From a virus, in the IMG/VR virus record IMGVR_UViG_3300028392_001307, positions 1 through 33,547 of that record: a stretch of DNA of 33,547 nt; one strand, written 5' to 3'. Below are positions 3,396 through 12,437 of this stretch, piece by piece. The translations under genes were made by a program, and so were the position numbers. The notes beneath the pieces are model-generated. The model did not search any database. It had not been told where the DNA came from and saw nothing but the letters and a program-made list of their open reading frames with translations. Within the stretch, counting starts at the first letter, position 1. Every line of letters begins with the position of its first letter.

Positions 3396-3830
3396 ATGAC
3401 TAAACTTGATGAATTATTAAATATGTGGGCAAAAGATTCTGTTATTGATAGAACAGAACCTGGCAAAGAACTAATCAATATACCCCAATTACATAGTAAG
3501 TATTTGAATGTACTTTCACGGCATCGTTTGCTTGCGAAAGAGGCTGAGTTCAAGTATAACAGAATGAAGAAGGTTAAGTGGGAATATTATACTGGTAAAT
3601 TAGATGATGACCAACTACAACACCACGGTTGGGAACCATTTCCGTTTGTATTGAAATCCGAGATTACTACATACTTTGAGAGTGATGAAGATTTAAACAG
3701 ACTGACTGCACAGAAGATGTTGCATGAGGAAATTGTTGATGTGTGCCAAAGTATACTTAAAGAATTGAATTCACGAACATTTCAACTTCGTGATTTTATA
3801 GCATGGGAAAGATTTATTCAAGGTGTTTGA
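3396..3830 (+). CDS. uvsY: Recombination mediator UvsY
   Basis: A 144-residue protein of UvsY size (T4: 137) placed directly before uvsW. UvsY helps load the UvsX recombinase onto gp32-coated single-stranded DNA. Recognisable elements are an N-terminal helix with FID-like residues (DSVIDRTEP, T4 KDVFIDSTK), the YLNVLSRHRLLAKEAE segment (T4 KWLNKHSSIKKEM), a Lys-rich stretch then the DYYSG-like EYYTGKLDDD (about residues 65-71), and a C-terminal helix resembling T4 SRGFAIKHIQDMRAFE (here SRTFQLRDFIAWERF). Strong AGGAGG ribosome site. The last 8 bases overlap uvsW. Confidence 0.9.
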   Translation: MTKLDELLNMWAKDSVIDRTEPGKELINIPQLHSKYLNVLSRHRLLAKEAEFKYNRMKKVKWEYYTGKLDDDQLQHHGWEPFPFVLKSEITTYFESDEDLNRLTAQKMLHEEIVDVCQSILKELNSRTFQLRDFIAWERFIQGV

Positions 3831-10329: not shown

Positions 10330-10923
10330 ATGAGTCAAATTTTAAAACTTAATACAGTTGATCCAAAGTATCAACAAGAAAAAGAAGTAGATCCATTTCC
10401 GTTGTATGATGAAAATCATCCAATGATGAAGCAACGTATTCCTGAATACGATATCACACTTCTACCTAATCCTGTTATGACGAATACTATTAACAGGTTA
10501 AAGATGACTATGAAGTTATACAATGGTTTAGGATTATCTGCCAATCAATGTGGTGTTTTTGAAAGAGTTTTCATTGTTGGTAATGGAGAGATTGTTATCG
10601 TTTGTATAAACCCTAAAATAATCAAAGCTTCAGATGATTTAATAAAAGACAATGAAGGATGTTTATCTTTTCCTGGTTTGTTTCTAAAAGTGGAACGAGC
10701 ATCATCGGTTGAAGTTGAGTATTATGACTATCAAGGTAAGAAATACAATACAACTTTTACTGGACTTACTGCTAGATGTTTCTTACATGAACTAGACCAT
10801 ATGAATGGCATTACTATGGATCAACATGCGAAACCTTTGGCCTTGAAAATGGCAAAAGAGAAGCAAGGTAAATTATTTAAAAGAGTTAAAAGGTTACAGA
10901 GAAATAATGGCATATTCGTTTGA
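10330..10923 (+). CDS. def: Peptide deformylase
   Basis: A 197-residue metalloenzyme that removes the formyl group from nascent N-terminal methionine. All three family motifs are present: GLGLSANQCG (66-75), EGCLS (109-113, Cys is a metal ligand) and HELDH (153-157, two His ligands and the catalytic Glu). A basic C-terminal extension of about 35 residues follows the catalytic core; a C-terminal helix near the ribosomal tunnel is known in bacterial enzymes, while most phage forms are shorter. Deformylases are common auxiliary genes of marine T4-like phages. No strong ribosome site precedes ATG 10330. The end overlaps the next gene by 17 bases. Confidence 0.96.
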   Translation: MSQILKLNTVDPKYQQEKEVDPFPLYDENHPMMKQRIPEYDITLLPNPVMTNTINRLKMTMKLYNGLGLSANQCGVFERVFIVGNGEIVIVCINPKIIKASDDLIKDNEGCLSFPGLFLKVERASSVEVEYYDYQGKKYNTTFTGLTARCFLHELDHMNGITMDQHAKPLALKMAKEKQGKLFKRVKRLQRNNGIFV

Positions 10924-12244
10924 TCCAAAAGATGATGTAGAAGAACAATGGCGTAAGTGGCAAGAAGCCAACCCGCCAGAATCTTTTATGGATATCAAAG
11001 AGAATGATTTGCGTGAGCAGACCATTAAAGACCTTGCCTATGTTTCACAGATGGATGTGAAAGAGTATACACTATATCAAAAATGGTGTGAGATTAAAGA
11101 AAAGTATCCATCGTTTGTAAACAATACTTTATTTGGTGAAGAGATTCAGTTGCTTGACCCAAAGCAACAGATATTGGTAGATGAAGTTAAGAGTAACATT
11201 TGGTTGCCACAAACTGCTGATGACTATTTGAATATTGAACCAGTAATAATCTATACCGATGATTCTAGTTCTGTATCTCGCAAAGGTGTTGATGGTACAG
11301 TCATTGAAGATAAGATTAAGCGTAGTGATTTACCTGAAAGATGGAACACAGCAAGAAACTTTATTTCAACAATGAAGAACAATAGTAACATTGGTCGCAA
11401 CCTTAATTTCCTTGTTGCAGATAATAAAACAGGTAAGTATCTTGGTGTTATGTGTATATCATCCGACTTTCTTGATTTGACACCAAGAGATAATGCAATT
11501 GGTTGGCCTCGTGAATTAAAGACACAAGGCGGAATGATTAATCATACTGCAATCGGTTCTACTATTGTTCCGTTTCAACCACTTGGTTATAATTATGTTG
11601 GTGGCAAATTACTTGCTTTACTTTGTCTATCAGATGAAGTACAAAGATTATGGAAGAAACAATATGGTGATACACTAATTGGTGTAACAACAACATCATT
11701 GTATGGTAAAACTAAAGCTAGTGGTCTATCACAATATGATAACCTTGACCATTGGAATGCCATGGGTTTTTCTTCTGGTTCAGTATCATTTGAACCGAGT
11801 AAAGAATCAAGACACAATATTCGTGAATGGTTAAAAGCAAATCACACACGAAAATATTTTGAATGGTATGTTGCAAAGAAAGCTAGTGGTCAACCACATA
11901 AGCGTGACCATAAGAATCGTTCTTTAAACTTCACTTACTCTAAGTTGAACATACCAAAAGATTTGATTAGAACAGCACATCAGCGTGGCATTTATTTTAG
12001 TCCACTCTACAATAACTCTTTTGAGTTTTTGCGTGGTGATATCAAAGAAGATGCATTGGTTAAATCGTTTGATACTAGTTATGAAGCCTTGACTAAAATA
12101 TGGAAAGAAAAACATGCTAAAGGCCGTATCAAACAATTAATGAAGAAAGATAAGGTATCATATGATACCCTATTCTATGATAAATTAATCTACATGACTT
12201 GGGAAGAATGTAAAGATTACTATCTTGGCCAAGTCGGTCGCTAA
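10907..12244 (+). CDS. DUF4338/DruA-like protein, copy 1
   Basis: A 445-residue protein. Residues 150-290 follow the DUF4338 (Druantia DruA) pattern: GRNLNFLVAD, KYLGVMCISS, RDNAIGW (194-200), then GGKLLALLCLSDEV (232-245) where DruA has its LAS.lL helix, and TTTSLYGKTK...SQYDNLDHWNAMGF (261-288) where DruA has ETFV...YrAaNW..vG. The N-terminal 140 residues and C-terminal 150 residues (basic, with a CobT-free, unassigned sequence) are extra. Its biochemical role is unknown; DruA belongs to an anti-phage system, but here it is phage-borne and lacks other Druantia genes. A diverged paralogue lies at 31387-32502. It overlaps the deformylase gene. Confidence 0.7.
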   Translation: MAYSFDPKDDVEEQWRKWQEANPPESFMDIKENDLREQTIKDLAYVSQMDVKEYTLYQKWCEIKEKYPSFVNNTLFGEEIQLLDPKQQILVDEVKSNIWLPQTADDYLNIEPVIIYTDDSSSVSRKGVDGTVIEDKIKRSDLPERWNTARNFISTMKNNSNIGRNLNFLVADNKTGKYLGVMCISSDFLDLTPRDNAIGWPRELKTQGGMINHTAIGSTIVPFQPLGYNYVGGKLLALLCLSDEVQRLWKKQYGDTLIGVTTTSLYGKTKASGLSQYDNLDHWNAMGFSSGSVSFEPSKESRHNIREWLKANHTRKYFEWYVAKKASGQPHKRDHKNRSLNFTYSKLNIPKDLIRTAHQRGIYFSPLYNNSFEFLRGDIKEDALVKSFDTSYEALTKIWKEKHAKGRIKQLMKKDKVSYDTLFYDKLIYMTWEECKDYYLGQVGR

Positions 12245-12261: not shown

Positions 12262-12290
12262 TTGACACGATACTAAATACCTGTTATAAT
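12262..12290 (+). promoter_or_regulatory. Consensus sigma70 promoter for the structured RNA
   Basis: TTGACA (12262-12267), exactly 17 bp, TATAAT (12285-12290), with TG at 12282-12283: a full consensus -35, spacer and extended -10, the strongest-looking promoter in the window. Expected start is about 12297. The only thing between it and the next promoter (12410) is the structured RNA below. Confidence 0.9.
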
Positions 12291-12301
12291 ATCAACTTAA
12301 T

Positions 12302-12364
12302 GCGGAGAGTCCGAGACAACCTATCCCAATAGGCAGTCAGGTTTAACTCCTGATATCCGCTCCA
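12302..12364 (+). ncRNA. Short tRNA-like structured RNA
   Basis: No ORF is present, but the 63 bases fold as a compact cloverleaf. The acceptor-like stem is GCGGAGA (12302-12308) with TATCCGC (12354-12360), one G/A mismatch, followed by T and an encoded CCA (12362-12364). A T-arm-like hairpin has stem TCAGG/CCTGA with 7-base loop TTTAACT (12337-12353). A middle hairpin is CCTAT-CCCA-ATAGG (12320-12333), and a mini hairpin is GTC-CGA-GAC (12309-12317). It is about 13 bases shorter than a normal tRNA, with no 7-base anticodon loop and only a vestigial D-arm, so it is not a standard tRNA. Alternatives are a degenerate tRNA, a regulatory RNA, or a riboswitch: its ends (GGAGAGU and AUCCGCUCC) resemble those of THF-I riboswitches as I remember them, although the interior does not. 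A dedicated promoter supports real transcription. Confidence 0.55.
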
Positions 12365-12384
12365 TTCTTAAAACAAAAGTATTA

Positions 12385-12437
12385 CTGTTGCTTCTATGCA
12401 ACATACTGGTTGACTTTTACGCCAACTCTGTTATAAT
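12385..12437 (+). promoter_or_regulatory. Promoter with upstream hairpin element for the CobT-like gene
   Basis: TTGACT (12410-12415), 16-bp spacer, TATAAT (12432-12437) with TG at 12429-12430. Just upstream is an inverted repeat GTTGC-TTCTAT-GCAAC (12387-12402). The 30-base block 12385-12414 aligns without gaps, 23 of 30 bases identical, to 14819-14848 ahead of the CobS-like gene, so the two promoters look like copies of one unit. The hairpin may also end the RNA made from 12297, although no strong T run follows it. Confidence 0.75.

Follow-up and report, generated by a model that had tools for sequence, protein, structure and literature searches.

The 63-nt element at positions 12302-12364 of the window, by which we mean the whole stretch of 33,547 nt analysed here (all coordinates are given on its plus strand), appears from its sequence to be a miniature tRNA-Gly, a true four-helix cloverleaf with an encoded CCA end. 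It follows a gene for a DruA/DUF4338-domain protein, and DruA-type GNAT genes are genomically linked with tRNA-Gly or tRNA-Gly-like genes, specifically. We consider it probable that this RNA has a dedicated role outside translation, as the tRNA-Gly from which the DruA-like GNAT takes a glycyl group. The first-pass annotation had described a promoter-driven tRNA-like RNA, possibly a tRNA mimic; the specificity for tRNA-Gly and the GNAT-fold partner are additions to it.

The window comes from a T4-like phage, of which it covers 33.5 kb, and contains genes for UvsW, SbcC/SbcD and a gp45-like clamp as well as CobT/CobS-like genes. The DruA-like gene (10907-12244, 445 aa) sits among replication genes, as it does in cyanophages, and next to it lies a peptide deformylase gene (10330-10923) that is kept in nearly all relatives. 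The sigma-70-type promoter before the RNA (12262-12290, TTGACA-17-TATAAT with the TG of an extended -10) matched the consensus at 12 of 12 positions, as the first-pass annotation had claimed. Its -10 element was found at the same place in most homologues, some of them without a good -35, and some homologous RNAs start a few nucleotides after the DruA stop codon (L169-L171). Downstream, the hairpin TGTTGC-TTCTAT-GCAACA (12386-12403) is a possible end of the small RNA and carries no T-run; a canonical terminator directly after the RNA was present in other lineages, in 13 of 69 distinct variants. The CobT-like gene has a separate promoter (12410-12437, 11/12 matches). Before this promoter the window carries, at 12370-12403, the conserved succession of AAAACAAAAGTATTAC and the hairpin GTTGC...GCAAC, which also occurred in lineages without DruA and RNA (L007, L015) and forms a separate conserved element, perhaps a terminator or an operator.

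The shrunken cloverleaf of 63 nt ending in TCCA that had been described from the letters alone was reproduced, and proved conserved and covarying. Its acceptor-like stem is formed by GCGGA (12302-12306), corresponding to G1, C2 and G3 of a tRNA-Gly acceptor, and TCCGC (12356-12360). There follow a D-arm remnant of 3 bp (GTC-CGA-GAC, 12309-12317), an anticodon-like arm with a 4-nt loop (CCTAT-CCCA-ATAGG, 12320-12333) that contains CC in every variant, and a T-arm-like hairpin (TCAGG-TTTAACT-CCTGA, 12337-12353) which abuts the 3' strand of the acceptor as in a tRNA. The element ends in the discriminator U73 and the encoded CCA (12361-12364), invariant across variants. The RNA types found here have acceptors of 5-6 bp, a D-arm of 3 bp with a loop of 3-4 nt, a middle-arm loop of 4-9 nt and, abutting the acceptor, a T-arm with a 7-nt loop and at most 5 bp. 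Single-sequence folding of the 63-nt element gave a minimum free energy of -18.9 kcal/mol (z -2.46; 3 of 200 shuffles equally good). Taken alone this fold is suggestive; the conservation is decisive.

About 69 distinct variants of the mini RNA were recovered in scans of viral contigs. The window's 63 nt recurred without a single base change in about 25 fetched loci, in which the identity of the CobT proteins goes down to about 70%, and the length is constant in the close family. An alignment of 42 variants had 97.6% of its cells paired and a covariation score of 0.316. None of 500 shuffles (0.107) reached this score, and sliding the partner strands gave no more than 0.09. Three helices carried compensatory changes in this set, with 4 of 6 pairs of the middle arm and 4 of 5 pairs of the T-arm changed on both sides and the acceptor-like pair 5-55 present as UA in 23 and AU in 19 variants, while the D-arm was invariant. 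A covariance model built from the close sequences then retrieved diverged copies beside more distant DruA genes, giving a set of 25 diverse sequences in which acceptor, D and T stems covaried (score 0.48 vs 0.108). Here the third pair of the D-stem occurred as CG, UA, AU and GC, and in the acceptor pairs 4 and 5 were variable and pairs 1-3 constant. With the distant homologues added, each of the four helices shows strong compensatory change; covariation among homologues had been one of the checks proposed in the first-pass annotation.

The flip of pair 5-55 between A-U and U-A rules out two further ideas of that annotation. A switch between folds, in which GCGGA would pair with TCCG instead, was rejected, as the alternative CGGA/TCCG pairing is lost in many GCGGT...ACCGC variants that maintain the GCGGW/WCCGC pairing (A-U to U-A). 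The resemblance to a THF-I riboswitch, which lies in the similar end sequences GGAGAGU and AUCCGCUCC, did not hold up either. Rfam gave no THF match (RF01831), the GGAG/CTCC stem that a THF-I or THF-II riboswitch needs is contradicted by covariation, being broken in the GCGGT variants and lost in half of the variants, and there is no adjoining folate gene.

Standard tools overlooked the RNA. Neither ARAGORN nor Rfam, also at permissive thresholds, matched the window's element, so that the match to a known class that could have overturned its novelty was not found, and the longer relatives tried gave no match with ARAGORN or Rfam RF00005 either. The interpretation as an independent transcription unit and tRNA mimic stood. 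Sequence and covariation together identify the acceptor strand, the discriminator, the CCA and the T-arm immediately before the acceptor 3' strand as tRNA features. A 7-nt anticodon loop with U33 is absent from the window's RNA, and a preserved anticodon CCC was rejected for it because a covarying pair, U-A or C-G, closes the loop CCCA.

The bases that resist change are those that mark a glycine tRNA. The identity set of bacterial glycyl-tRNA synthetase (GlyRS) in E. coli and Thermus consists of U73, G1-C72, C2-G71, C35 and C36 (PMC9976931). All RNA types share G1-C72 and C2-G71, the discriminator U73, a CCA end encoded in the gene and a CC within the middle loop. As sequence features, the members of the identity set were present in every variant of the diverse alignment; one variant, L072, has A in place of C2. 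Acceptor pair 3 is mostly G-C and was A-U in two copies from tRNA clusters (GCAGTC..GACTGC), and pair 4 is altered in L215 (GCGAGGC..GCCTCGC); since pairs 3 and 4 vary, conservation does not extend beyond the identity set. Other variants had the middle loops TGTCCAA, CTTCCC, TACCC or CACCC, and in several longer relatives TGTCCAA forms a 7-nt loop with a UCC anticodon. A search after DruA that prescribed no bases other than NCCA still returned TCCA, and GCG...CGC-UCCA was found in 31 of 33 distinct best matches within 800 nt after DruA. Among control stretches 1 of 164 gave such a match, and that one was a genuine copy. The loose tRNA descriptor as such also matched in 44 of the 164 control stretches; given so high a background, we relied on its glycine-type matches only. 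In L215 (5339-5478) two mini tRNA-Gly-like RNAs of different types stand in tandem after one DruA gene, the acceptor stem of the second differing beyond pair 3.

The partner protein matched PF14236 with an E-value of 9.9e-21 (74.6 bits vs a curated cut-off of 27) and the PADLOC DruA model with 2.2e-18. It showed no sequence match to solved structures. In its AlphaFold model (pLDDT 79.9) nearly all top structural matches were GNATs, with Z up to 9.4 and weak Foldseek E-values, and DUF4338 has been assigned to the GNAT domains by sequence-structure analysis (PMC10853773). The window's protein is thus a GNAT by fold. With the full model, Mom of phage Mu (8bv8) ranked first (Z 9.4 vs 8.7, 174 residues), and with the domain model it ranked 21st (Z 8.6 vs 9.0), tied with polyamine and aminoglycoside acetyltransferases. 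By sequence the protein is not a member of the Mom family (PF25680), and its profile comparison with Mom sequences was not significant. A cyanophage relative was annotated as 'methylcarbamoylase mom' by its depositors. A kinship with Mom in particular is putative.

The association between RNA and DruA was judged on protein-fetched sets only, because many loci had been collected by the RNA pattern; the contigs are metagenomic fragments and relatedness was crudely handled. Among loci fetched with CobT, a query that favours neither outcome, RNA and DruA were both present in 11 and both absent in 6, with no exceptions (Fisher 8e-5, uncorrected for relatedness). The link to the CobT/CobS-like genes put forward in the first-pass annotation was therefore not upheld: the RNA follows the DruA-like gene and is missing where DruA is missing though CobT remains, and CobT was dropped as partner on seeing these DruA-free lineages. 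A DruA-like gene lay upstream of the RNA wherever the contig extended that far, at a distance of a few to about 60 nt, or of 550-770 nt where a homing-endonuclease-like ORF was inserted. These ORFs of 140-170 aa on the opposite strand, seen in several lineages (L013:299-917, L096:6193-6738, L122:2077-2624, L146:2863-3428), resemble GIY-YIG-type homing endonucleases by eye, and the site between DruA and the mini RNA is a recurrent insertion site.

About a third of the freshwater DruA loci contained no such RNA within 800 nt: about 27 of the 71 that had been fetched with DruA and had enough flank. Some of these have one elsewhere (G004, G005, G007, G009), which in G004, G005 and G007 is located in a tRNA cluster kilobases from DruA on the same contig. 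In G001, G002 and G003, which include long contigs, and in several fragments no such RNA was found at all. Tight co-evolution of RNA and DruA is absent: one DruA protein 89% identical to the window's is accompanied by a clearly different RNA type (L151), another with 63% identity by the identical RNA (L005). Such loose coupling suits a recognition of the common acceptor end, and it makes specific binding of the RNA by DruA no more than putative.

A second, cyanophage-like type of DruA, about 26% identical to the window's protein, fetched 80 marine contigs. Within 3 kb of marine DruA, 24 of the 25 tRNAs recognized by ARAGORN were tRNA-Gly, with ACC or UCC anticodons, and one was tRNA-Arg. The chance of 24/25 is about 2e-23 at a generous 10% of glycine tRNAs, and with 7 of 8 independent arrangements it is below 1e-6. 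Degenerate marine tRNA-Gly genes that ARAGORN missed had the T-loops GGCAGTA, TGCATTA or ATCAAAT and again ACC or UCC anticodons, and one marine contig carried a 64-nt mini form. The tRNA-Gly was situated 8-10, about 70-80, 400-600 or 1100 nt downstream of DruA, or 10-14, 580-630 or 1050 nt upstream of it; counting both sides of the gene, at least six different arrangements occur. In 16 long marine contigs, tRNA-Gly was present in all 14 that had any tRNA, the only other tRNAs being Arg and Thr.

The cultured Pelagibacter phages HTVC008M and Mosig likewise contain a DruA-like gene and, a few kilobases away, a tRNA-Gly(ACC) that lacks annotation and has an unusual T-loop; in HTVC008M this gene, about 4 kb from DruA, is the only tRNA recognized by Rfam. 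Both phages have in common a short GCTGTGCGAYMTGACGCA motif before CobT, at the site of the mini RNA in freshwater phages (L231 intergenic 3617-3752, L230 4197-4331). No tRNA was found beside DruA in DruA-bearing cyanophages such as S-SSM7; tRNA-Gly is common in cyanophages anyway, and its presence at genome level is uninformative. In contigs from bacterial and archaeal genomes the RNA pattern had no match, and DruA as query yielded nine loci, of which two (L278, L279) lie close to a gene for tRNA-Gly or for a tRNA-Gly-like RNA. An apparent second DruA-like gene directly follows the first in contigs of Thermoplasmata bins (L273:3575-4000, L275:2360-2760).

From the observed structure, identity-set conservation and genomic linkage we infer a sequence of processing, charging and donor use. 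The RNA would be transcribed from its own promoter, or together with DruA, and trimmed by host tRNA-processing enzymes to 63 nt ending in CCA. Host GlyRS would charge it with glycine via G1-C72, C2-G71, U73 and the middle-loop CC. Ribosomes would presumably not use an RNA with no proper anticodon loop or D-arm. The phage's DruA-like GNAT, to judge from the genomic linkage, would then transfer the glycyl group from the RNA to a target amine. As acceptor we conjecture DNA as the favoured candidate and protein as the alternative, because Mom of phage Mu is a GNAT that adds a glycine-derived group to adenine in phage DNA and because the DruA-like gene lies among replication genes. The full chain, in which GlyRS charges the 63-nt RNA and a Mom-like DruA GNAT moves the glycine onto bases of the phage DNA, is tentative and, taken as a whole, rather doubtful.

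Conversely, the DruA-like GNAT could act on the glycyl-tRNA of the host, with the phage RNA serving as a substitute or a sponge, or inhibiting either this enzyme or GlyRS. TacT acetylates glycyl-tRNA-Gly and recognizes U73 and G71, a specificity that fits the conserved bases (PMC9976931), and DUF4338 GNATs are possible effectors in defence systems (PMC10853773). We nevertheless regard such a decoy or antidote as unlikely. Many of the partner tRNAs are full-size and ordinary-looking, better suited to a donor than to an inhibitor, the gene belongs to a replication/nucleotide module and not to a toxin-antitoxin setting, and for translation the mini form would be no replacement for a tRNA that had been destroyed.

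Very unlikely, in our view, is a linkage without function, in which DruA and tRNA-Gly genes form one travelling cassette or occupy a common hot spot. The homing-endonuclease-like ORFs between DruA and RNA in some phages do mean that the site is mobile. Against this reading stand the varied arrangements on either side of DruA, distant ones included, and the selection on the glycine identity set while translation features decay.

We give hardly any credence to a degenerate but working tRNA-Gly that aids phage protein synthesis. The acceptor end, U73, CCA and the CC of the loop are in place, and the marine tRNA-Gly(UCC) beside DruA is ordinary, but the window's form combines a 4-nt middle loop, a 3-nt D-loop and no U33 in a length of 63 and is invisible to ARAGORN and Rfam, and the linkage is selective for one gene. 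Moreover, one phage with the mini RNA (G023/L033) has two ordinary tRNA-Gly genes among its 25 tRNAs, so that the mini RNA is hardly there for translation supply; together with the decayed anticodon loop, D-arm and T-loop of many copies this speaks against translation. A cis-acting leader or riboswitch of the CobT-like gene, or a structure stabilizing the 3' end of the DruA mRNA, would suit an RNA that in the close family is flanked by DruA and CobT, but is just as improbable given CobT's own promoter 3' of the RNA, the terminators that several lineages have immediately behind it, the copies in tRNA clusters and the lack of the RNA in CobT lineages without DruA.

The FemXAB transferases of S. 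aureus have the GNAT fold. For the reading as a glycyl donor, the non-proteinogenic tRNA-Gly of S. aureus, which feeds the peptidoglycan transferases (PMC9976931), is the nearest working analogy: it too is dedicated, has lost translation features and provides glycine for GNAT-fold transferases, a donor role that would have its counterpart here. The S. aureus RNAs differ in being full-size tRNAs with true anticodon loops, bacterial and directed to a cell-wall acceptor, whereas the phage RNA is phage-borne and has 63 nt. Reduced arms and tRNA mimicry as in the mini RNA are also encountered in the tRNA-like bacterial Y RNAs, plant virus 3' ends and D-armless mitochondrial tRNAs. To our knowledge none of these is a phage-encoded 63-nt form of tRNA-Gly linked to a GNAT gene.

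With Druantia the partner protein has the sequence family DruA/DUF4338 (PF14236) in common; here it is a phage gene with an N-terminal extension, and we saw no further Druantia genes next to it. No description of an RNA partner of Druantia was found. With Mom of phage Mu the likeness lies in the GNAT fold and in a product with a glycine-derived group, while the Pfam families differ (PF25680 vs PF14236). No tRNA gene is annotated at the mom locus of Mu, and no tRNA-Gly was found in 24 kb around mom in the Mom phages ICP1 and PMBT69. By our own chemical reasoning, the known N6-carbamoylmethyl adenine and an N6-glycyl adenine are isomers. For the donor of Mom, a review names no more than an acyl-CoA 'such as glycyl CoA' (PMC7824862).

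In the open-access literature we found no description of the mini RNA or of its link to DUF4338. Many freshwater T4-like phages carry a tRNA cut down to 63 nt, which escapes current annotation tools, and marine T4-like phages carry longer forms. DUF4338, a family known only by its domain name and also present in Druantia and Dnd-associated defence proteins, is now tied to glycyl-tRNA, which makes the chemistry of the enzyme directly testable, with Pelagibacter phage HTVC008M as a cultured system. The association also suggests a possible source for the glycine-derived group of Mom-type DNA modification: if the DNA-glycylation reading is true, glycyl-tRNA and not glycyl-CoA may be the donor of such modifications.
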